Positions 8,339 through 22,188 of a stretch of DNA of 30,546 nt are shown here, piece after piece. Position 1 is the stretch's first letter; every line of letters starts with the position of its first letter. The position numbers and the translations under genes were made by a program. Below the pieces are notes generated by a model. The model did no database searches, was not told where the DNA came from, and saw nothing but the letters and a program-made list of their open reading frames with translations. Origin of the DNA: a virus; the IMG/VR virus record IMGVR_UViG_3300020395_000061, positions 1 through 30,546 of that record. One strand, written 5' to 3'.

Positions 8339-8346
8339 TATTTATC
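8339..8346 (-). promoter_or_regulatory. T4-type late promoter
   Basis: GATAAATA on the minus strand overlapping the TGA stop of the LamG-containing gene, 36 bases before the ATG at 8303. Confidence 0.55.
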
Positions 8347-11300
8347 AGACTCCGTACTTACTACGGGTAGCATTGAAGTTTTGAGATATCTCTCCAACAC
8401 TTAAACGTCTCTTATAAACACGAACTTCAGCTATCTGACCATCAAGATCACCAGTACCAACATTACTATTGTACGTATTTGTTCCAAGCATAATATTTCT
8501 ACCACTAGAGAAATCAATAGCAGAAGTATTGCCAGTGTTTATAGCAGTGTCTTGTTCTACGTCATTAATATACAATCGCATTGTACCATACCCTGCATCT
8601 TGATCATAAGTTCCAACCAAATGCTGCCAGTTATTAGTTTGGGTAAAGTGTTCACATTCTTCTTGATATGGATCAAGATAAAATCTCCAGTCAATACTAT
8701 TACCACCAGAAGTTCCAACACCAAGATAACAGCTTCTTGTTGTACCTAAATCACCAATAGTAATACCAGCTCCTGAGTTACTATAGGTGTCTACTTTCAT
8801 CCAACATTCTACTGTTAGACTACTTACAGAACCAGCATTCACTCCAGTGTCAATAAATGATGTGTTAACACCACTACCATCAAAATCCCAACAAGGAACA
8901 CCTGCATTTGGATCGTAATAAAATGCCCTGCCTGAATAACCAGTATGAGTGCTACTACCCAAATCATATGTGAAAGTATTAGCATCTACCACTGTGACAG
9001 TGTAATAAACATTCATATCATAATTGTAAATGACCATGCTTGGATTTTCTAATTGTAATTTTATACAAACCGAGTCACCAGTAGTCAAATTATGAGCATG
9101 TGTAACCGTTGCAATTGATCCAGAAACTGAAACGGGCATAGTAAAATTGCTACCAATTCGTAGAGCAGAAGGATTAGCAGAATCAGTGAATGAACATCCA
9201 GTAGGTTGTCCAAGACCTGAACCTTGGAAAACAATATTCTTTGGTTTAGATCGTGCTGTTTTTGCTTCTCCATAAGTTTGGAAATAATTATTCATATTAC
9301 CTCCTTCTTCCAGTTGAGCACCCCAAACTAATGCTTCACTACCATCAACTCCTCCAACATTACATATCATCGTAGTATTATTAGACTTAGTTCTAGCGGT
9401 GCAATGATAACGTTTCCAATTTTTCTCCAAAGCAAAGGTAGTTTCAGCAGAAATTGCATCTCCTGTAATACGTTTCCATCTTACCTTAAAGTTATTACCA
9501 ACTTGGTCTGGTGTACTTGCCTTAACCCAACAAGAAAAAGTATATTCCTTACCTCCTGTTATTGGTATCTGAGTAGAGGCACCTGCAGTTACTGGTCCAA
9601 GACTAGGACTGGTATCTATATCATTTGATGATATAGTTGCTTTGGTAGCAGTCATTGTTCCATCAGGAGCAATACCTGCATTTTCAACAAGTGCTCCATT
9701 GCTACCTGTATTCCAGTTTCCATTATGAGTGCTCCATGGAATTAAATTCTCAGCAGGTTCATAACATACTCTGTTTCCAAAATCATAGTGTAATATAAGA
9801 GTAGTATCAGTTACAGTATTGGTACTAATTTTAGCTGCAGTGTGAGGTAACTGATCTTTATACTTATACTTAGTAGCATGAAAATTCTGATAAACTTCTT
9901 CTTCTGATAGACATCTTGGATAGTAACGGAAATCTGACATACTTCCTTTAAAATAACCATTACCATTAGTAGGGTTACCATTATAACCAATATACCAATC
10001 ATTAGTAGCATTACCAATGTCTGTACTCATAACAGCACCAGCACCATCAGAGTCTCCATCTAAGTATACTGTACCAATACCACCAGTTCTTGTAAATACA
10101 GCATGATGCCAGTTATCATCATAACAATCAGTATTTCCATAAACTAATAGTTTAGTACCACCTGGTTCTTCTGTATAAAATCTTAGTGTACCATCATTGA
10201 CATGAAATCCTAGTCGTGTAAATGGTCCATCAAAATCATCTTTATTAGAAAATAAATATTGCCAAACACCTCCAGCACTTTGACCAGGAGTTTTAAACCA
10301 AACTTCAAATGAAAAATCATTAGTGCCTAAAGCTGCAACATTAGATGTTTGGAATCCATTATAAGCATTTCCAAGAAATAGCCATTCATGTTCGCTATTT
10401 GCAGCTCCTTTTACAGGAGTAGAACCACCAACAGGCACAAGTTTCCATGAAGAACCTGCAATACCTTTATCTTTTGCATAAACTGTTGTAGTACCACCAA
10501 CAGTAACACTTGTTGTTTCAGTTGTTAAATCAACCTGACTAAAATCAACAGGTCTAACTGATGGACTACCACTGTATAAAAATACATCTTTCTCTTCATG
10601 ACGTGTCTTCTTGTATGCAATGTTAGTAGCATAGTCATCAAATAAAGTTTTCAATCCATTATAAGGATAAGAAATCTGATCACTAGTATCATTTCTAACA
10701 GATCCATCAGACAATCTTCCAATTCTATCAACAGCAGAGTTAACAGAGTAAGTAATTGTTTTAGAATTTGTTGCATCATATGTGAACTCACCAAAACCAT
10801 TACCAGAAGCACTTACCTTACCAAAGTTATATGTTTTAGATGCACCAGTACCAACATTCTCTTGCTCATCTACGAAAAGAATATAATAGAAAGATGGATC
10901 TCCTTCTAATCCCATCACACCTTCATCAAAAACATTATTACCTTCAGCAAAATTTGTAGAAGATTGAATTCTTCTTTTAAAAACAACGTCACCATTCTTT
11001 GAATATTTAATTAAGGTCGGTCCTCTCTTAGTAGGAGATCCAGCAACTACCTCATGAGAAAGAACAATTGTTTGTTCAACTTCTGTGTCTGACCAAACTT
11101 TATAATAAGTATGTTCTTCTCCTACAGGAGATCTTTTCTGCCAGATTAAATTTCCTTCTGCAGTATATTTAAAAATAATTCCATTATTAATAACACCACT
11201 ATCGTAATCACTTTCTGCACCTACAATATAAATCTGATCTTTACCATCAATATAAACATCTTTTAATTCAACTGGATTTTTTGAACCAGCTTGATGTTCT

Positions 11301-12073
11301 TCACCACTATCAATTGTTAAATCCCAAAGAACTTCTCCAGTATTAGCATCTACCTTTACTACATATCCCTGTTCTTCTACTCCATCAATTGATCCAACTG
11401 CAACAACTTGATCTCTATCATTAGCTGCTATTGACCACAGATTAACATCACCACCTAAACGAGTTGATGCCTTACCCCATAAAGGATTTCCATCACCATC
11501 CCATTTTTCAATAAATGCCACCCATTCACCAGTAAGAGCAATATATTTGTGACCACAAGCATATATTTGATCTTCACTTGCAGTACCATTGCTCTTAATA
11601 GCAACATCAAAGTATTCTAGATCAGCAGTTGATGAAGTTGATGACCACACTTGCGTTCCATTAGAATTAACCTGTGAAATCCATGGCATTCCATCAGTTT
11701 TTCCACCAACATAAATTAAACCTCCATATGGCTGTTGCTGCTTCATGAAGTTTATTCTACATCCAGTTCCATTAGTAACAGTTTGATTAAATTTAGTTCT
11801 CCAGTCTTGTACATTAGTAGGATTTGCTGGATCAGTCTCAGCATCATAAGCTTGCTTTTCTACGAAACCAAAATGAATTGAATTAGAATCCCTTCCATTT
11901 CCAGATAAAAGATATTTCTGATCAACTTCACTATATCTAATATCACCTGTAGTATACCTATTATCTGATGATGTTGATCTATTAATATTATGAAAGAAAT
12001 TGGTGACAGCATCTTCGCCACCTGAACCTAGAAGAAAGAAATTCCTAGGAGGACTATTAAAACTTACAGGCAT
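8345..12073 (-). CDS. tail fibre/adhesin with beta-propeller and two LamG-like domains (1242 aa)
   Basis: Residues about 90-430 contain repeated blade-like units (for example GYVVKVDANTGEVLWDL and GIIFKYTAEGNLIWQKR) typical of a beta-propeller of the PQQ/SBBP kind. Residues about 578-730 and 1083-1242 are LamG/concanavalin A-like lectin domains (FSFEVWFKTP...WHHAVFTR...YLDG; LTVECWMKV...WQHLVGTYD...LYINDVEQ). Between them, around 785-930, is a jelly-roll-like carbohydrate-binding segment (YTFSCWVKAS...WKRYHCTA). Together these suggest a glycan-binding structural protein, probably at the tail or on the capsid surface. It begins 12 bases after the upstream fibre gene with AGAGGA before the ATG; no late promoter of its own is obvious, so it may be co-transcribed with that gene. 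Confidence 0.8.
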   Translation of the reverse strand: MPVSFNSPPRNFFLLGSGGEDAVTNFFHNINRSTSSDNRYTTGDIRYSEVDQKYLLSGNGRDSNSIHFGFVEKQAYDAETDPANPTNVQDWRTKFNQTVTNGTGCRINFMKQQQPYGGLIYVGGKTDGMPWISQVNSNGTQVWSSTSSTADLEYFDVAIKSNGTASEDQIYACGHKYIALTGEWVAFIEKWDGDGNPLWGKASTRLGGDVNLWSIAANDRDQVVAVGSIDGVEEQGYVVKVDANTGEVLWDLTIDSGEEHQAGSKNPVELKDVYIDGKDQIYIVGAESDYDSGVINNGIIFKYTAEGNLIWQKRSPVGEEHTYYKVWSDTEVEQTIVLSHEVVAGSPTKRGPTLIKYSKNGDVVFKRRIQSSTNFAEGNNVFDEGVMGLEGDPSFYYILFVDEQENVGTGASKTYNFGKVSASGNGFGEFTYDATNSKTITYSVNSAVDRIGRLSDGSVRNDTSDQISYPYNGLKTLFDDYATNIAYKKTRHEEKDVFLYSGSPSVRPVDFSQVDLTTETTSVTVGGTTTVYAKDKGIAGSSWKLVPVGGSTPVKGAANSEHEWLFLGNAYNGFQTSNVAALGTNDFSFEVWFKTPGQSAGGVWQYLFSNKDDFDGPFTRLGFHVNDGTLRFYTEEPGGTKLLVYGNTDCYDDNWHHAVFTRTGGIGTVYLDGDSDGAGAVMSTDIGNATNDWYIGYNGNPTNGNGYFKGSMSDFRYYPRCLSEEEVYQNFHATKYKYKDQLPHTAAKISTNTVTDTTLILHYDFGNRVCYEPAENLIPWSTHNGNWNTGSNGALVENAGIAPDGTMTATKATISSNDIDTSPSLGPVTAGASTQIPITGGKEYTFSCWVKASTPDQVGNNFKVRWKRITGDAISAETTFALEKNWKRYHCTARTKSNNTTMICNVGGVDGSEALVWGAQLEEGGNMNNYFQTYGEAKTARSKPKNIVFQGSGLGQPTGCSFTDSANPSALRIGSNFTMPVSVSGSIATVTHAHNLTTGDSVCIKLQLENPSMVIYNYDMNVYYTVTVVDANTFTYDLGSSTHTGYSGRAFYYDPNAGVPCWDFDGSGVNTSFIDTGVNAGSVSSLTVECWMKVDTYSNSGAGITIGDLGTTRSCYLGVGTSGGNSIDWRFYLDPYQEECEHFTQTNNWQHLVGTYDQDAGYGTMRLYINDVEQDTAINTGNTSAIDFSSGRNIMLGTNTYNSNVGTGDLDGQIAEVRVYKRRLSVGEISQNFNATRSKYGV

Positions 12074-12085
12074 TTATATATCCTC

Positions 12086-15000
12086 TTAACTGAAGTCGGT
12101 ATTACCCTGACCAAATACTTTAACGACACCAGAGTTATCTTTCATAACAATAAAAGAAAGTATATCTGTATTAGATGTAGCTAATGGTGGAGAACCTCCA
12201 GACCATTGAACACCATTTGAAACGTTGTTTCCATCAACAGTACAAGCATCACCATATGTAGCAGCAGCATTAGCATCAATAATTATTGTGACTGTAATGG
12301 ATTGACCATTCTGTAGTAGATTGCCATCAGGATCAGCAGTATTAAATGCCCATGTATTAATAGCAGTAGTTGGTGTAGTTCCACAAGTTGTGTTAGCACC
12401 TGCAGTTGTAACGTTTAATGTATTATTAGTAACAGTAAATGCAGAAGCGAAACTACTGAATACTTTTTCAATAACTCTACCACCAAGGACAGCAGCACCA
12501 TCAACTTCCAATGCTGGAGAACCAGTAGGACCAACAAGAACACCAACAGATGTTAGAGAAGAATTAACAACGGTTGCACCAAGAGTTGTAGTAGAAAGAG
12601 CTAACTGATTGTTAATAAGAAACTCTTTACCAAAAGCAAGTTCAAAGTTATCAGTACATGTGAAATACTTATTAGTTCTATTATCATATAGAATACTATG
12701 ATCTGTTGTACCCTTAACGATAACACCACCACCATCTGCAGCAGTATCAGAAGGACCAACAGCTTGGAAGGTTGCTGTTCCAGATCCACCTACAACAGCA
12801 GATAACTCTGCACTGTTTCCAGTAATAGAAACAATTGTAGTTCCAATAGGAACACTAATACCACCAGTCGTAGAAGTAACAACCATTCCTGGAATCAAGT
12901 TTGATGTAGGAGTGATTGCAGTTATTTCATCATCATTATTTACAGTTATTGCAGTAAATGTTGTGTTAACAACAGCAGCAAGTTCAAGGTTTTTATCGTC
13001 AACCTGTATGACGTTTGAATTAATTGATGTAACAGTTCCATTAACCGTTAGAGATCCTTGTATCAATGCATCTCCATCAACAGTTAAATTATTTCCTATT
13101 GTTACCTTAAAAGTATTATCACCACGTATCCATGCCTCAGTACCAGATCCAATAACGAGTTGGTTGTCACCATCAGGAACGATTGGAGTATGAGTAGCAT
13201 TAGTAGAGTTAGCATCAGCAGCTGGACCGATAATAACATTACCACTACCTGTTAAACCATAACCTGCATAGTATCCAATACAAACGTTCGCTTCACCTGC
13301 AAGGTTACTCTCCATTGCATTGTTACCAATGGCAATATTTTTATCCGCAGAAGTCGCTGATAGCAATGCATCTCGGCCAACAGCTATGTTATCATCTCCA
13401 ACACCAAGTTGGTTCAATGCCCTATTACCAAATGCAGTATTGCCAGCACCACTATTAACTGTTAGCAATGCTTTATAGCCCACCGCAGTATTCTGGGAAC
13501 CAGAAGAGATGTTATCTAAACAAGAAACTCCAAGTCTAGTGTTTGTTGCAACAGCACCAGCACCCCTACCAATACTCATTGGGTCTGACTTAGTACCACG
13601 AATCCATATATCTTTTTCTTCTGCGTTTAACTGACCATATACTTTGACATCACCATCAGTAATAACTCCATTAGTATCTAAACCAACCTCTAAACTTTCA
13701 TTGATCTTAACATCTTGATCTATTGTAGTTGTACCACCTGCTGCACCAATATTAATTGCAGTGGCAGCACCAAAGGCAGTAATAGAAGTAGCAGAACTAT
13801 TGAATAATGTCAACCCAGTAGAGGTTGTCGTCAATCCTTGAATTATATTTGGATTAGTTTGAAATACTAATCTATCTGTTCCTGTTGTATCACTTACCAA
13901 ACCTCTCATCTGTGTGGAAGTTGTTGAAGCAAACACAGCAAGAGTATCACTTGTGTATGCTGTACTACCACCGTTTCTAAAGTTTACTGATATAGATGCA
14001 GCATTATTATCAGAAGTAAATAATAAATCTCTCTTAACTTCTAATGTTTTTGCATCAGTCATTGTTAAGACTGCTGATGCAGTTGTTGTAATTTCTAAAC
14101 CATTAATAGAAGTTGCTGTTGCAGCACCAAGAACAGGAGTAGTTAAAGTAGGAGAATTTAAAGTCTTATTTTCAAGAATCTGAGTGTCTTGATCAGTTAT
14201 AATATTCTTATTAACTGATCCATCAGTAAATCTCCACAACTGTCCAGCTTCATACCATTCTAATCTTTGATAATTAGATATATTACCTTGTGCATCTGAT
14301 GTTCTGTTAACCTGTATACCACCATCAGCAGCAACCAAACTATTACCTTTTCTTAATTCAATAATATTATCTTCTACTATTAAAGTAGCAACCTCTAAAA
14401 TTGTTTGTGTTCCTGTAACTAAGAGGTCACCACCAATAGTAACAGTTGTTCCATCATCCTGAATGATACTATTAGAAAGTTGTGTATTACCACTATCCCA
14501 CTTAACTAATGTATTACCTACTAAGTTTGTACTATTCTTTAAAGATATATCAGATGAAGAAAATTGAAGACCACCACTAGCAGTAATAGCAGCACCACTG
14601 TCAGTGTTAACAGAACTAATTTCAATAGTAGTTATACCAGCATTTGTACTTTGTGTAATACTTGTAGCACCTGATGCAGTAAATTTAAAATCTCCAGAGT
14701 TTACAGCATTAGATCCACTAGCAAGTCTTGTAATTGTATCGTTGTCTGTGCTGTCAATATTAATTGTACTACCAGATTGTGAGACAGTAACATTACCACT
14801 ACTACCACCAACAAGAGTTAAATCTCCTGAAGTAAGTGTTCCTGTAGTACCACCTTTAAGTCTAGTAATAGTATCTAATGAACTAATTGTAATCTCTGGA
14901 TCTCCACTACCAGCATTAGTTCCTTGAGTTACAGTAGCTGCTCCTGCTTGAAGGAAAGTAAAGTTTGCAACAGTTCCATCTGCTGGTGCATAAACTCCAC

Positions 15001-15715
15001 CAGCACCAGCACGAATTTTGGTTTTTGTATCTGTGTCTGTTGCTGCAACATTAATAACTGAACCAGTCATGGTTACACTAGCAGAACCAGAGGAGGTAAA
15101 TGATAATGCTCCAGAGGTTGCACTTCCACCTGGTGCTATAAGACTAGTAACCGTATCAGTATCTGGTGCTTGTCCAGCTATTGTAATAGTGTCACCAGTT
15201 CTAGATATTTCTAATTGAAGAGCATTGTTACCAGCAGTAACAGATTGTGGAGATCCTACTCCAATTGTTACATCATCTGTAATACCAGCACCACTTCCAG
15301 CTGAAGTTAATCTAATAATTTTTTCTAAGTTTGATGTAGCATCTTCTGCAGAAACATTATAAGTTGTATTGTTATCAGCTACAGTAAGAGTACCACCTAG
15401 ATCAACTGTTGTTCCGTTAACTGTAATTCCTGAATTAAGAAGAGCACCATTAGGAATATTAGAAAGACTGTTGTTTGCACCGTCTATAGTACAAGACTCA
15501 AACACTTTATTCGTAACTGTTTGAGAAGTTGTTAAGTAAACATCACCAGGAGAATTCCAGAATACTGTCGTGCCATCACTGTACAAATATTTTCCAGCAC
15601 CTAAGTCACCGCCAATGGTAATCCCATTACCTGTTAGTTGCAGATTGTCACCTGATACAAGTTCTTCTATCTTCCTTGATACAGAGTTAACAATTAATGG
15701 ATAACGATCAGCCAT
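12086..15715 (-). CDS. long tail fibre-like protein with YadA-type repeats (1209 aa)
   Basis: Fibrous beta protein. Residues about 180-390 contain four imperfect units of roughly 45 residues beginning DTxT(K/R/S)L or DTKTKI. Residues 742-830 hold six units of a 17-residue repeat (NTAVGYKAL, NTAFGNRAL, NIAVGRDAL, NIAIGNNAM, NVCIGYYAG, NVIIG) like the head of trimeric autotransporter adhesins such as YadA, which form a left-handed parallel beta-roll trimer. Smaller elements such as GSLTVNGTVTSIN resemble other phage fibre shafts. Probably a trimeric fibre for host recognition. Preceded by GGAAG and a late promoter at 15748..15755. Confidence 0.78.
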   Translation of the reverse strand: MADRYPLIVNSVSRKIEELVSGDNLQLTGNGITIGGDLGAGKYLYSDGTTVFWNSPGDVYLTTSQTVTNKVFESCTIDGANNSLSNIPNGALLNSGITVNGTTVDLGGTLTVADNNTTYNVSAEDATSNLEKIIRLTSAGSGAGITDDVTIGVGSPQSVTAGNNALQLEISRTGDTITIAGQAPDTDTVTSLIAPGGSATSGALSFTSSGSASVTMTGSVINVAATDTDTKTKIRAGAGGVYAPADGTVANFTFLQAGAATVTQGTNAGSGDPEITISSLDTITRLKGGTTGTLTSGDLTLVGGSSGNVTVSQSGSTINIDSTDNDTITRLASGSNAVNSGDFKFTASGATSITQSTNAGITTIEISSVNTDSGAAITASGGLQFSSSDISLKNSTNLVGNTLVKWDSGNTQLSNSIIQDDGTTVTIGGDLLVTGTQTILEVATLIVEDNIIELRKGNSLVAADGGIQVNRTSDAQGNISNYQRLEWYEAGQLWRFTDGSVNKNIITDQDTQILENKTLNSPTLTTPVLGAATATSINGLEITTTASAVLTMTDAKTLEVKRDLLFTSDNNAASISVNFRNGGSTAYTSDTLAVFASTTSTQMRGLVSDTTGTDRLVFQTNPNIIQGLTTTSTGLTLFNSSATSITAFGAATAINIGAAGGTTTIDQDVKINESLEVGLDTNGVITDGDVKVYGQLNAEEKDIWIRGTKSDPMSIGRGAGAVATNTRLGVSCLDNISSGSQNTAVGYKALLTVNSGAGNTAFGNRALNQLGVGDDNIAVGRDALLSATSADKNIAIGNNAMESNLAGEANVCIGYYAGYGLTGSGNVIIGPAADANSTNATHTPIVPDGDNQLVIGSGTEAWIRGDNTFKVTIGNNLTVDGDALIQGSLTVNGTVTSINSNVIQVDDKNLELAAVVNTTFTAITVNNDDEITAITPTSNLIPGMVVTSTTGGISVPIGTTIVSITGNSAELSAVVGGSGTATFQAVGPSDTAADGGGVIVKGTTDHSILYDNRTNKYFTCTDNFELAFGKEFLINNQLALSTTTLGATVVNSSLTSVGVLVGPTGSPALEVDGAAVLGGRVIEKVFSSFASAFTVTNNTLNVTTAGANTTCGTTPTTAINTWAFNTADPDGNLLQNGQSITVTIIIDANAAATYGDACTVDGNNVSNGVQWSGGSPPLATSNTDILSFIVMKDNSGVVKVFGQGNTDFS
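13226..13492 (-). repeat. YadA-head-like 17-residue repeats (51 bp period)
   Basis: Six consecutive coding units with the pattern N-x-A-h-G-x-x-A-h, the first four exactly 17 residues apart and the fifth 16. The DNA copies are diverged, so the repeat is old and kept at protein level. Confidence 0.75.
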
Positions 15716-15747: not shown

Positions 15748-15755
15748 TATTTATG
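15748..15755 (-). promoter_or_regulatory. T4-type late promoter
   Basis: CATAAATA on the minus strand, formed by the last codon and TAA stop of the subtilase gene (GCA TAA ATA). Lies 33 bases before the ATG of the fibre gene at 15715. Confidence 0.6.
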
Positions 15756-18657
15756 CTGCATTATTTGGAAAGGATCTACCATTACCCCAAATAATTCTAA
15801 CAGCACCACCAGCAGCATTTCCATTACCATCTGCACCTCCACCATAAGTACCAGCAGTAGAATGTCCACCAGGAGTACCACCTGATCCTCCTCCACCACC
15901 CATACTACTGTTACTTTGAGATTGAGATACATCATGAACACCAGTTCCAGCAGCACCACTTGCTCCTTCACCTTCTACACCAACTCCACCACCACAACCA
16001 GATTGAGTATTAACAACTCCTTGAATAGCCCATCCACCTCCAGCAGCACCACCAGTTCCTGCACTTACTTGTACACCCCACTCTGGAACGTTTGTACCAC
16101 CATCTCCACCATTACCTGAGTATCCACCTGCTCCACCGCCACCACCAAAATATCCTGGATTAGCAGAACCATTATAGTTACCACCTCTTCCACCATTTCC
16201 TCCACCATCTCCAGTCCAAGTTCCACCAGGAGAATTCTCTCCAGTTACAGGAATACTTACATGAGTCACACCACCTCCACCAGATACTGTTCCAGTTCCA
16301 ATAAAGTATGATGTTCCACCATCTGCACCACCAGCAACTCCAGCAGCACCAACGACTACTGTATAAGATTGCCCTTCTACTACAGAAATATTATTCTTCC
16401 AACCGAGACCTCCACCGCCTCCTCCTCCAGACCAACCAGTACCATCACCTTCTCCACCACCACCTATACATAAGGCAGATACAGATGATACTCCAGCAGG
16501 GCAAACCCAAGTATATGTTCCTGCTGTGTAATATCCCTGTTGTCCTGTAGGAGCAGAAGGATTAACTTGTATGGTTGAAACCATACTACCATGGTTTTGA
16601 CACTGGTAATAGAAGTATCCATTTGGACCTGTTCCTCCTCCAGCAAGTCCAACAGGGATATTCCAAACAATAGTACCATTATCTGTACCATTATTAGTTA
16701 CACTACTATCCAGTACACCAGTCTGTCCACTGTTAGCTCCTGTTCCAGCAGCATCTTTCAACCAAACAGGATGTCCAGAAGCATTTACGTTAAAGTAAAC
16801 TGTGTCTCCTTCATTGAATTCTAAAATAGGATCATTACCACTCACAGATCCATTTCTATCAGAACCTACTACAGTATAATTGTTATTCTGAGCACCAACA
16901 ACCGTTATAGTTAAGGTATACGTTTGTCCTCCAATTGGATTATCTGCTATTGTAGAACTCGTACGAGTTCTTGGAAACACCATTCCAGTATTTCTATTAC
17001 CTATTTGTTCAATGAGTTGTCCAGATTCTGGTCTAGGATTAATAGCTGCAAGATATCTGTCAGGACTATCTGCTTGACAAGTATTATCAGCAAAATCTCC
17101 ACCATTAGTATTCCAATTCATATCACCAGTAACACAATGGTCTTGAATATATCCTAAGACATCAGCATTTGTAAATCTAAATTTGCCTGTGGCAAGACAT
17201 GCTGCTACACCTGCTACTTGAGGTGATGCCATACTGGTTCCTTGAATAGGATAGAAATAATTACCTGTTCCTTGTGTATACTTACCATCTGCCAAACCAG
17301 TATTATCATACGCAGAAAGAATATTATTTCCAGGAGCAAAGACATCTACTGCTGGTCCGAAATTACTATACGTTGCTCTTAAAAAATTATGATGATTAGA
17401 TAGAGAACCTACTTTAATAACATTCTTTGCGTTAACAGGAGAACTTCCTCTATTAAAAAATATATTACCTAGTGTAGTAAATTTAATAAAGTTATCCCAG
17501 TTAGGATCAGTATCTGGAACCATATGAAAATTATCATTACCTGCTGCTCCTATAATAACTATACCCTCTGCTATTGCATCCTCAACATCAGCTCTTAATG
17601 CTGCATAGTCTGCAGGTATATCCATTTTGTTTGCACCTATTCCAAAGTCTGCTTCAACTCCTGCCATTGTCCACCCACTTGGATTAGCATTAACAGAACT
17701 GTAAGTTATACCACCATAAGTAATAGAAGATATCTCACCGATTGCAATTGGTGCAGCATGATTTAAAAGATTCTCAGATGTTAAATCATATCCATAACCC
17801 CAACTATGATTAGTGATAGTAGGATTCTTAAACCCTGTTGTAGTATTAACTGATTTGTTCCTATGAAATGCTCTAAGATAATCATAGATTAATAATGCTG
17901 GAACTGCAGTACCTGTACCAGAAAGATTACCAAGAACCTGCATACTATAAATGTTTGCTTCTCTAGCCCATCCATAGTGTTGTCCTGCTACTGTTCCACA
18001 TACATGGTTACCATGTGATTCTGTATTAGTATCGTTCTTAAAATAATTTGCATATGGTGCAGATGGTAATGTCTGTCCATCATCATCAATAGTTCCTACA
18101 AGAGTATTCAGTTCAGTATACCAATCATACTGTACATATCTTGTTGTATTTGTTGTAGGACTATACCATTCCTCATTGTCAGTTGATACTGGATCATCAC
18201 ATATAATTACATCAACATGCTCACCATCATTAAAAACAGTAACAGTATCTATTACCTGTTCATCTGTTGCACCTTGATTTATTAATCCATAAGTTCCCTT
18301 TCTTCTTTGTGCTGTATCTCCTGCACAATGTAAATGACCCCACTGTCTATCATTAGATGATACCTGTGCTGGTGGTTGTGTATCTCCTTTCCAAAAGTTA
18401 CCAGCAACAGGATAAGGATCGTAATTTTCTCCTGTCCTTCTAATCACCATACCCATTTCTTCAGGACGTAATTGAACATCCCAAATCCTAGAGTCTTTAC
18501 GTAATTCTATTGCCTGTTCTTCTGTCATCCAGTAGTGTGTATTCCTACTAGAAGGACGTTTCATATTTAAACGGAAACCTTTATCCGTCATCTCAGTATA
18601 AAAACTGTCTAAATCTTCATGCTTATGAAGAGTGACAACGTATATCTTTTCCGTCAT
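15751..18657 (-). CDS. subtilisin-like protease fused to cupredoxin-like and glycine-rich adhesin domains (968 aa)
   Basis: N-terminal 130 residues (MTEKIYVVTLHKHEDLDSF) look like a prodomain or attachment region. Residues about 140-510 are an S8 subtilase: Asp154 (VDVIICDD), His215 (SHGNHVCGTVAG), oxyanion Asn374 (GAAGND) and Ser475 (GTSMASP), so the triad appears complete. Residues about 578-698 resemble a cupredoxin: ASGHP (His629) and YYQCQNHGSM (Cys686, His689, Met692) could be a type 1 copper site. From about 705 to the end is a Gly-rich domain (TYTWVCPAGVSSVSALCIGG; ending RIIWGNGRSFPNNAA), as found at receptor-binding tips. It follows the previous gene by three bases with AGAGG before the ATG. 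Likely a virion protein acting on the host surface or processing itself. Confidence 0.85.
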   Translation of the reverse strand: MTEKIYVVTLHKHEDLDSFYTEMTDKGFRLNMKRPSSRNTHYWMTEEQAIELRKDSRIWDVQLRPEEMGMVIRRTGENYDPYPVAGNFWKGDTQPPAQVSSNDRQWGHLHCAGDTAQRRKGTYGLINQGATDEQVIDTVTVFNDGEHVDVIICDDPVSTDNEEWYSPTTNTTRYVQYDWYTELNTLVGTIDDDGQTLPSAPYANYFKNDTNTESHGNHVCGTVAGQHYGWAREANIYSMQVLGNLSGTGTAVPALLIYDYLRAFHRNKSVNTTTGFKNPTITNHSWGYGYDLTSENLLNHAAPIAIGEISSITYGGITYSSVNANPSGWTMAGVEADFGIGANKMDIPADYAALRADVEDAIAEGIVIIGAAGNDNFHMVPDTDPNWDNFIKFTTLGNIFFNRGSSPVNAKNVIKVGSLSNHHNFLRATYSNFGPAVDVFAPGNNILSAYDNTGLADGKYTQGTGNYFYPIQGTSMASPQVAGVAACLATGKFRFTNADVLGYIQDHCVTGDMNWNTNGGDFADNTCQADSPDRYLAAINPRPESGQLIEQIGNRNTGMVFPRTRTSSTIADNPIGGQTYTLTITVVGAQNNNYTVVGSDRNGSVSGNDPILEFNEGDTVYFNVNASGHPVWLKDAAGTGANSGQTGVLDSSVTNNGTDNGTIVWNIPVGLAGGGTGPNGYFYYQCQNHGSMVSTIQVNPSAPTGQQGYYTAGTYTWVCPAGVSSVSALCIGGGGEGDGTGWSGGGGGGGLGWKNNISVVEGQSYTVVVGAAGVAGGADGGTSYFIGTGTVSGGGGVTHVSIPVTGENSPGGTWTGDGGGNGGRGGNYNGSANPGYFGGGGGAGGYSGNGGDGGTNVPEWGVQVSAGTGGAAGGGWAIQGVVNTQSGCGGGVGVEGEGASGAAGTGVHDVSQSQSNSSMGGGGGSGGTPGGHSTAGTYGGGADGNGNAAGGAVRIIWGNGRSFPNNAA

Positions 18658-19728: not shown

Positions 19729-19736
19729 TATTTATT
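19729..19736 (-). promoter_or_regulatory. T4-type late promoter
   Basis: AATAAATA on the minus strand, overlapping the TAA stop of the 818-aa fibre gene (AAA TAA ATA), 22 bases before the ATG at 19707. Confidence 0.5.
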
Positions 19737-22188
19737 TTCTATGTTCTAGTTCTTTGAAAAGATCATCTACACGAGCATTTAACTCCTGTATTGCATTAAC
19801 CAAAGCAGGTATTAGTTGTTTCTTATCAAGACCCTGATAAGAATCAGGATTTTCATTCCATAATCTATAAGATTCATAGTTAGATTTGTCTAAGGCATCC
19901 TTAACATTCTGAGCGATTAAACCTGTTTCTCTCTTACCTGCTTTAGTACCATTAAATTCCATATCTTTATAAGTGAAATTTACAACCTCCAAACTGTTAA
20001 TGAAATCTAATCCACCTATAAATTTTTCAAAGTCTTCTTTAATCCTTACATCAGATCCTTGATCCTCAAAGATATCACGAATCTTTCTTTCTGCACTACC
20101 AATATCATATGTAGCAGTAACTAATGGTAATATATGAGCGTCAACAACAATGGGTCCAACTGGATCCAATACTAAACAATTATCGGTACCAGGTCCACCA
20201 CTAGACAATTGAACAGCATCTTGGAAGTCAACCTTATTAGATCCAGATGCTATCTCAGTAGTGATCTGTGATAATGGTGGTGATACATCAACCCACTGAC
20301 TTGAATCTACATCTTGATAATATATTTTTAGTCTTCCTTTATCTGACTCCCACCAAAGGTCACCAGCAGTTGCTGCTGGAGCAGTGTCTGCGATAGTTAC
20401 ACTAGCTCCTCCACCTCCACCACCAGCACCCCATACAAGTTCTGTACCATCACTGGTTAATACCTGACCTGATGTTCCTTTACTTCCATTTTTATCTACA
20501 ATACTACCATTAATCTTTACACCATCTGCATGTGTTTCTAGCTTAGGAGATGAAGCATGATATAAAAGAACTTCTGCTCCTGGTTTACAATAAACAGCAT
20601 CACCACCTCCCATAAACCTCAACTGAATATCACCGTATGCTTGCAACTGTAATGCTTTATCCCAAGAATCAGTACCAGTCTGTTGATTGTTCTGAATAGC
20701 AAATACACCACTAGTGGATCTCAGAATACTATTACCATTACTACTATGGAATATTTCAAATTCTTCATTAGCACCAACAGTTATCTTAGAACCAGTACCA
20801 GTAGTACCACTATCTGCTATTACTTTTAAAGAAGCTTTAGTTTCAAGAGCACCAGTACCATCTATAGTAAGACATACTAGATCAGTAAAGTTTCCTATCT
20901 CAAGTGCGTTTATAGCAGTTCCATCACTATTAGGTCCATCAGCTCTACAATTTGCAAATCCATTTCCATCAAATTTCCATCCTATAGTATTAGTACCAGC
21001 AAAGTTTCCAAATCCACCAGGAAAATAACCAGTTGTTGTACCAATATTAGTATTTGTAATACCACCACCATTAGCTTGAATAATATGAGTACCCATGTCT
21101 AAATTACCACCAAGTTCAGGTGATCCATCATCCGCAAGATCAGACATATATCCACCACTAGCATGGTTACCCCACCCATATGCTGCATCCCAGTTAGAAA
21201 TATTAGAAGCAGTAATAGTAGCAGCATCTGATGCAGCAAATACTGGATCAGTTTCTGTTGTTAAATAACTTGTTAAATTTGGTGGTGTAAATGTAAATAC
21301 TCCAAGTGCATTGTTATAAGCAAGAGATCCACCACCACTTGCTGAAGCATTTGTTACTGAAAGATCAGATAATATAATACCTGAACCACCACTACCAACT
21401 AAGTCTGTAGTAGCAATCCAATTACTACCATCATACTTAAGAACCTGTCCATTAGAAGGTGCAGTAGCAAATACTACATCATTTAATGTTTCAATAGATG
21501 TAGCAGAAGATAAGTATCCAGCACTAGCATGATTACCCCAACCATGTGCTGTATCCCAATTATTAATCTTAGCTGTAGTAACTCCAGCAGCATCACCAAG
21601 TGATGTTAAGTATCCAGCAGAGCTGTGGTCACCCCAACCAAATGCTGTATTCCAATCAGAAGAGTTATCTGTAACTATTATATAAGTACCAGCACCAAGT
21701 CTTGCCATCAAACCATTGCTAGTAAAATCTCCATCTACAAGAGCAGTACCTAATGATGTCAAATAACCTTGCTCTCCAACCCATGCTTGTGTTGCATAAG
21801 AAGCAAGGTTAGGTGGTGTATAAGTAAACTCACCATTAACAGAATTATATGATAATGAAGGAGTAGTAGATGCAGCAGCAGTAACTATACTGGGAAGTGC
21901 AGGTACCACTGGTTTGTTTAAAATTGCAGAAACACCTCCAGTTGCATCCCAATCAGAATTAACTTGTGCTGCAGGTATAGATGGTTTGTTAGTTAAATTA
22001 AAATAATTGCCATCAAATACATCAACCCATTGGACTGATGAAGCAGTGGAACTCAAAACCTGACCAGATGTTCCTGCAACACCAGCAGCCTGAATCGGTT
22101 TACCAGCAGGGATATTAAGACCCTCTTTTATTTCAATAGGAGAATTATCTCCATAATTAGCAATTTGATTTGCAAGAATTTTTGACAT
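19732..22188 (-). CDS. tail fibre protein with C-terminal S74 intramolecular chaperone (818 aa)
   Basis: The last 110 residues (709-818) are a peptidase S74 chaperone: SDVRIKEDF with Ser712 and Lys717 as the self-cleavage pair, the helix FINSLEVVNFTYKD, TGLIAQNVKDAL, LIPALVNAIQEL and a terminal coiled coil. This domain trimerises the fibre and then cuts itself off. Upstream are three copies of W(D/N)xAxGWGxHxSxGY (residues 179, 211, 333) and two copies of YxPPNL-type modules shared with the 348-aa protein. The N-terminus (MSKILANQIANYGDNSPIEI) is probably the attachment end. AGGA precedes the ATG and a late promoter lies at 22226..22233. A receptor-binding fibre is the likely role. Confidence 0.88.
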   Translation of the reverse strand: MSKILANQIANYGDNSPIEIKEGLNIPAGKPIQAAGVAGTSGQVLSSTASSVQWVDVFDGNYFNLTNKPSIPAAQVNSDWDATGGVSAILNKPVVPALPSIVTAAASTTPSLSYNSVNGEFTYTPPNLASYATQAWVGEQGYLTSLGTALVDGDFTSNGLMARLGAGTYIIVTDNSSDWNTAFGWGDHSSAGYLTSLGDAAGVTTAKINNWDTAHGWGNHASAGYLSSATSIETLNDVVFATAPSNGQVLKYDGSNWIATTDLVGSGGSGIILSDLSVTNASASGGGSLAYNNALGVFTFTPPNLTSYLTTETDPVFAASDAATITASNISNWDAAYGWGNHASGGYMSDLADDGSPELGGNLDMGTHIIQANGGGITNTNIGTTTGYFPGGFGNFAGTNTIGWKFDGNGFANCRADGPNSDGTAINALEIGNFTDLVCLTIDGTGALETKASLKVIADSGTTGTGSKITVGANEEFEIFHSSNGNSILRSTSGVFAIQNNQQTGTDSWDKALQLQAYGDIQLRFMGGGDAVYCKPGAEVLLYHASSPKLETHADGVKINGSIVDKNGSKGTSGQVLTSDGTELVWGAGGGGGGASVTIADTAPAATAGDLWWESDKGRLKIYYQDVDSSQWVDVSPPLSQITTEIASGSNKVDFQDAVQLSSGGPGTDNCLVLDPVGPIVVDAHILPLVTATYDIGSAERKIRDIFEDQGSDVRIKEDFEKFIGGLDFINSLEVVNFTYKDMEFNGTKAGKRETGLIAQNVKDALDKSNYESYRLWNENPDSYQGLDKKQLIPALVNAIQELNARVDDLFKELEHRK
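21148..21654 (-). repeat. three GWGxHxSxGY fibre repeats
   Basis: Codons for W(D/N)xAxGWG(N/D)HxSxGY occur at 21610-21654, 21514-21558 and 21148-21192. The first two are 96 bases apart; the third is separated by an inserted module carrying the YTPPNL-type motif. Confidence 0.75.

Follow-up and report, generated by a model that had tools for sequence, protein, structure and literature searches.

The gene and its domains

The window, by which we mean the whole stretch of DNA analyzed (30,546 nucleotides), is a 30.5-kb virus record whose gene content is that of a marine T4-like cyanophage, with genes for transaldolase (talC), ribonucleotide reductase, and tail fiber and virion structural proteins, and its nucleotide matches are to S-RSM4 and other Synechococcus phages. 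The gene considered here encodes a protein of 968 residues in which an I9-like propeptide, a subtilase, a cupredoxin domain and a glycine-rich C-terminus follow one another, with these coordinates for the gene, its parts and its neighbors:

15751..18657, minus strand: subtilase-cupredoxin-glycine-rich tail-locus protein, ORF of 968 aa with an ATG start
18424..18657, minus strand: I9-like propeptide, aa 1-78 (AlphaFold2 secondary structure; PF05922 weak in relatives)
17023..18423, minus strand: subtilase (S8, proteinase K-like) catalytic domain, aa 79-545 (PF00082; VIA)
18196..18198, minus strand: catalytic Asp154 (sequence; invariant in family alignments)
18013..18015, minus strand: catalytic His215 (sequence; invariant in family alignments)
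17536..17538, minus strand: oxyanion Asn374 (sequence; invariant in family alignments)
17233..17235, minus strand: catalytic Ser475 (sequence; invariant in family alignments)
16933..17022, minus strand: linker and module-swap boundary, aa 546-575 (pLDDT<50 at 543-575; identity drop to the relative L003)
16555..16932, minus strand: cupredoxin (blue-copper-type) domain, aa 576-701 (profile search, AlphaFold2 model, Foldseek/VIA)
16771..16773, minus strand: His629, first putative ligand (sequence and conservation)
16600..16602, minus strand: Cys686, putative ligand (sequence and conservation)
16591..16593, minus strand: His689, putative ligand (sequence and conservation)
16582..16584, minus strand: Met692, putative axial ligand (sequence and conservation)
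15754..16554, minus strand: glycine-rich C-terminal domain, probable adhesin tip, aa 702-968 (Gly content, phrog_4474, fast evolution)
19732..22188, minus strand: neighboring tail-fiber protein with an S74 chaperone end (PF13884 E=6e-11; phrog_9729 tail fiber)
12086..15715, minus strand: neighboring virion structural protein (phrog_6002 virion structural protein)

The gene as a whole matches phrog_9158 over aa 3-698 (E=5e-224) and phrog_4474 over aa 691-967 (E=6e-38). Its neighbors are, by their phrog matches, fiber and virion proteins, and the virion-type setting proposed in an earlier note on this DNA is borne out to the extent that the gene lies in a tail-fiber locus. Further along the window, at 8345-12073, another virion structural protein carries LamG/ConA-like domains and a weak match to a BamB/PQQ-like propeller. 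An assembly chimera was considered as the source of the four-part architecture and rejected, since the IMG/VR contig L001 encodes a protein of 968 aa that has all four parts and is 94% identical to that of the window.

The PF00082 match of the protease part (E=7.5e-25) reaches 88.3 bits, where the cut-off is 21.8. The model of the catalytic domain (aa 82-545) can be overlaid on keratinase, aqualysin and proteinase K with a VIA Z of about 34-35; for keratinase 5wsl the values are Z 34.9 and 2.4 Å over 279 residues. Equivalents of D154, H215, N374 and S475 are present in 57/57 family members in which all four positions are readable, the remaining members being incomplete or unaligned at those columns and left out of the count. 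The complete S8 triad that had been read from the letters (Asp154, His215 and Ser475) stands with its residue numbers exact, and the active site is intact at the level of sequence, from which we infer proteolysis. Ahead of the catalytic domain, aa 4-63 are predicted by AlphaFold2 to run beta-alpha-beta-beta-alpha-beta, which is the topology of I9 propeptides; matches to PF05922 (I9) in relatives are weak and below the cut-off (E 0.05-0.13). No signal peptide was seen by eye at the protein start, which reads MTEKIYVVTL.

At the other end, residues 705-968 are 36% glycine, in agreement with the glycine-rich C-terminal domain described earlier. PF21722 (Gly_rich_2) matches this end of the window protein over positions 2-219 of 226 with E=0.07 and 13.5 bits, below the cut-off of 24.3 bits, and scores 20.3 bits in the relative L070. 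Between the window and L001, 40 changes in the glycine-rich domain fall in nonsynonymous and 5 in synonymous codons, as against 27 and 25 in the propeptide and protease part (Fisher p=1e-4 between the two regions). Such fast change is as expected of a host-contact tip, and the glycine-rich end is probably an adhesin tip.

The cupredoxin domain and its putative metal site

The motif in the window copy reads H629 ... C686-QN-H689-GS-M692, and the positions noted earlier, His629 and Cys686-x2-His689-x2-Met692, are exact in the translated ORF. The likeness to type 1 copper proteins that had been claimed for this beta domain is supported by both profile and predicted structure. A profile of relatives, compared with all PDB sequences, matches almost only blue-copper proteins, with plastocyanin, nitrite reductase, rusticyanin, amicyanin and auracyanin at the top, and while the E-values are modest (plastocyanin E=1e-4) the match list is nearly pure. 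In the printed profile alignments the H, C, H and M columns pair with the plastocyanin ligands, and the C-x2-H-x2-M spacing of nitrite reductase 6hbe is identical and ungapped.

The AlphaFold2 model of the domain, built with 87 sequences, has a pLDDT of 89.2 and a pTM of 0.85, and its Foldseek and VIA matches are copper nitrite reductase, rusticyanin and small laccases with Z of 8.7-10.0 (VIA Z 10.0 for nitrite reductase, 9.9 for rusticyanin and about 9.4 for laccase, the highest value corresponding to 2.4 Å over 96 residues). The Cys ends one strand in the model, the second His and Met lie in the loop to the last strand, and the first His stands just before an earlier strand, which is how these residues are placed in type 1 sites. 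Structure prediction had been put forward earlier as a check on the site, and topology together with alignment to solved copper proteins gives a predicted arrangement that is type-1-like.

PF00127 finds no match in the window copy alone, for which Pfam returns a weak I-set match, and the relatives L084, L070 and L029 pass the PF00127 gathering cut-off. Since the profile, the model and these relatives agree, the domain is taken as a predicted cupredoxin fold with a complete 2His-Cys-Met set, one that would be expected to bind metal. The residue directly after the first His is usually Asn in plastocyanins; in the window it is Pro630, with Pro found there in 85% of copies, and the domain is therefore classed as a cupredoxin domain and not as a plastocyanin.

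The residues of the putative site are well kept among relatives. Nine positions are invariant in 15 aligned phage copies, including the first His, the Cys, the second His and the Met, and the quartet belongs to a handful of positions that hardly vary between copies about 30-40% identical. HCHM is read in 119/146 distinct viral copies with readable columns, a count in which the Cys and second His are biased within the IMG/VR set, as that sample was drawn with a pattern containing C-x2-H, and in which the first His and the Met are unbiased. Another 5 copies read HCHQ, Gln being the axial residue of stellacyanins, and the others mostly lack several ligands at once (e.g., YCYY). Among named phage records searched with tblastn, HCHM is present in all 21 of the 21 copies read, which include gp9 connectors of several genera, proximal fibers, the podoviruses P-GSP1 and P-SCSP2, and P-SSM2. 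Relatives lacking these residues had been named in the earlier note as what would speak against a metal site, and most copies keep them.

The near relative L003 has a protease 91% identical to that of the window and a cupredoxin module 39% identical, with amino acid identity at 0.92-1.00 over codons 476-525, 0.33 in the linker and 0.33-0.53 after residue 550. Its module still reads HPF...CQVHTNM; by these alignments the whole cupredoxin module is swapped in L003 with the quartet retained. A chance motif was also considered and rejected on the profile matches, fold and conservation.

Occurrence of the domain in tail and baseplate proteins

The cupredoxin domain is found in 165/50,697 phage records, nearly all of them cyanophages, and in at least 456 IMG/VR stretches. 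The earlier note had called a copper center in a tail protein very unusual; by these counts the copper-site module is no one-off, and a unique oddity is rejected. The domain occurs widely among the tail and baseplate proteins of cyanophages, its ligands conserved, and as judged from sequence it spans unrelated tail proteins (the gp9 connector, the proximal fiber and the subtilases). Within the 80 loci kept, S8 lies in the same ORF in 42/80 and within the fetched stretch in 47/80. The arrangements comprise S8 alone (S-RSM4), S8-cupredoxin (S-CAM4), S8-cupredoxin-Gly (window, L001), S8-Gly-cupredoxin (L011, L070) and S8-esterase-like-cupredoxin (L008, L012).

In L008:4194-7157, L012:5959-8907 and L013, an esterase/alpha-beta-hydrolase-like domain, matching Abhydrolase_2/Esterase just below the cut-off, lies between subtilase and cupredoxin and gives, as predicted, three surface-acting modules in one protein. 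The cupredoxin of L075/L084 and L087/L091 is placed inside S8, or between the propeptide and the catalytic domain, and this close contact of inserted cupredoxin and subtilase may be functional. Phage proteins of ~3000 aa with 6-7 cupredoxin copies also occur (L029, L024, L030 and similar; YHYH domains as well in L029), and in several of these one like-placed copy has His, His and Met changed to Tyr with the Cys kept (YCYY).

A GTDB scan with the single domain as query gave no relatives, and a scan with a narrow alignment gave proteins of marine Bacteroidetes together with one contig from a Prochlorococcus single cell. The marine Flavobacteriales/Bacteroidetes proteins (in the set L101-L116) have lipoprotein-like starts and a C-terminal cupredoxin with the ligands kept; a route of exchange between phages and bacteria is possible, and the presence of the domain on such proteins suggests a surface module shared generally by phages and microbes of the sea. 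L103 (QCLS01000003.1, Prochlorococcus AG-418-C09, 189,106 bases), a contig as large as a cyanomyovirus genome, encodes a 2078-aa protein in which the cupredoxin recurs several times; the contig may represent a phage genome inside a cyanobacterial single-cell assembly.

The gp9/baseplate wedge connectors of many cyanomyoviruses end in a cupredoxin with all four ligands (L018 from S-WAM1, L117-L123, L128 and L132:18114-19613), and ACG-2014b (L117) has a second, divergent copy in the adjacent baseplate wedge protein. S-SZBM1_206, which has a C-terminal cupredoxin with the four ligands present, was identified in purified virions by LC-MS (9 peptides, 24.9% coverage; PMC9146016 Table 1). For S-SCSM1, from which MS identified 45 virion proteins (PMC9602691), the record tags gp144 (S8) and gp141 (cupredoxin) with “(virion protein)”. 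In the similarly annotated record of S-CREM2, whose baseplate region has no cupredoxin domain, this note matches the published MS table, and both S-SCSM1 proteins were probably detected in virions. The S8 protein gp144 is a distant relative of the window protein (27%). The direct virion evidence is that of relatives, and the window protein itself is a putative virion protein. The four putative metal ligands are conserved in relatives of the domain across many marine phage tail proteins, so that these virus tails may carry metal.

Proposed role, alternatives and known systems

The reading that we favor, with a probability of roughly 0.55, is that the window protein is a tail-associated zymogen protease with exchangeable C-terminal modules, one of them metal-competent, where metal and activity are predicted from sequence and model. 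The propeptide would fold the protease and inhibit it until assembly or release. The protein would sit on the tail fiber or baseplate with its glycine-rich end in contact with the host, and the protease would trim a host surface protein (or a phage fiber) on contact. The cupredoxin would bind one metal ion, most likely copper, which would lock the ligand loop and stabilize the beta-sandwich, making it a rigid module that serves as a linker or in contact with the host. Redox chemistry would be possible and is no requirement. More tentatively, and with the odds leaning somewhat against it, marine cyanophage virions may hold genuine type 1 copper centers in baseplate and fiber that are used in host contact, one of which the window would couple to a tail-borne protease.

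The alternatives are not mutually exclusive and our confidences in them need not sum to one. Close to an even chance is given to the view that zinc or copper acts as a structural clamp in a protein that is purely adhesin and protease, with no redox role. In its favor, the domain recurs as a building block in fibers, in collagen-like and YHYH proteins and in lipoprotein-like proteins of marine Bacteroidetes, settings that offer no partner for electron transfer; against it, type 1 copper sites use just this set of Cys, two His and Met, and copper proteins are the sole strong relatives of the profile. It is also conceivable, if distinctly less probable than its opposite, that the protease matures the fibers of the phage itself during assembly and does not act on the host. 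The gene is located between fiber genes, its neighbor ends in an S74 self-cleaving chaperone, and the protease stands alone in some relatives such as S-RSM4, whereas in many relatives it is covalently joined to surface-type modules, in some to the esterase-like domain, and a relative fused to the baseplate bears a virion-protein tag, in keeping with extracellular action.

We consider it unlikely that the domain is a metal-free, Ig-like structural decoration whose four residues persist only because of packing or history, the structural relic raised as an option in the earlier note. The quartet is lost in about 15-18% of copies, so the cupredoxin fold can serve without metal; some tandem copies have lost His, His and Met together and still persist, and the I-set match is all that Pfam gives for the window copy. 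Against such a relic, the quartet is conserved across unrelated tail proteins, is near-invariant at the low identity given above and outlasts a full module swap, and Met is replaced by Gln in 5 copies. The losses also mostly remove several ligands at once, but on a tree built without the ligand columns they amount to about 6 independent events, and a concerted-loss test on that tree ran in the expected direction with only 3 supported independent pairs and was not significant, so that co-loss is a suggestive and not a statistically decisive argument.

Cupredoxins bury their metal site, and the domain has no known link to an outer-membrane copper receptor, which makes it very improbable that host copper- or metal-uptake surface proteins recognize tail copper in the way that the “Trojan horse” idea for phage tails proposes for iron, even if the domain does occur in host-contact proteins. 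The precedent for such a route is the report of iron in T4 fiber tips and of HxH motifs in marine phages (PMC11705849).

Both S8 and cupredoxin are known kinds in a new setting, the subtilase part by itself being of an already known kind. A search of the open-access literature found no paper that links the tails of cyanophages to cupredoxin or to type 1 copper, and a widespread virion cupredoxin appears to be undescribed in the literature searched. If copper does occupy the sites, the particles of viruses abundant in the ocean would be copper proteins. Tails would then have a metal cofactor new to them, one that might take part in host contact through redox chemistry or by adding stability, and viruses would hold a small pool of the copper in the sea. 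Many “hypothetical” tail proteins, from 165 phage records and at least 456 IMG/VR stretches, can now be grouped as a single domain family open to testing. The presence of S8 beside the domain suggests that a protease is carried to the surface of the cell by some cyanophages.

Among known systems, the PF00127 plastocyanin/azurin family (amicyanin, rusticyanin, nitrite-reductase cupredoxin domains) shares with the window domain the Greek-key beta-sandwich, the His...Cys-x2-His-x2-Met order, a ligand-for-ligand profile alignment and a VIA Z of 9-10. The window domain differs in being joined to a protease within a protein from a phage tail locus, in the Pro after the first His, in lying below Pfam detection and in that its copper is putative. 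Proteinase K-type subtilases (S8) have in common with the window protein the triad, the oxyanion Asn, the fold (Z about 34) and, by predicted topology, an I9-like propeptide, whereas the window protein is phage-borne, without a visible signal peptide, and has insertions and the C-terminal cupredoxin and glycine-rich modules.

Also among the closest counterparts are the cyanophage proteins of phrog_9158 (S-CAM4, ACG-2014j/e/i, S-H9-1), annotated “hypothetical protein” or “subtilisin-like serine protease”, which match S8 and cupredoxin over aa 3-698 with 47-52% identity. The S-CAM4 protein ends after the cupredoxin, to which the window adds a glycine-rich tail that is common to the window and L001 and stands in another order in L011/L060/L070. 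The gp9 baseplate wedge-tail fiber connector of cyanomyoviruses likewise has a C-terminal cupredoxin with HCHM, but has no protease and a different N-terminal part. Iron-binding HxH fiber sites (T4 gp37; Alteromonas phage R22Y, PMC11705849) resemble the present case as metal sites in a tail fiber, putative here, and are octahedral paired-His sites as opposed to a cupredoxin fold.
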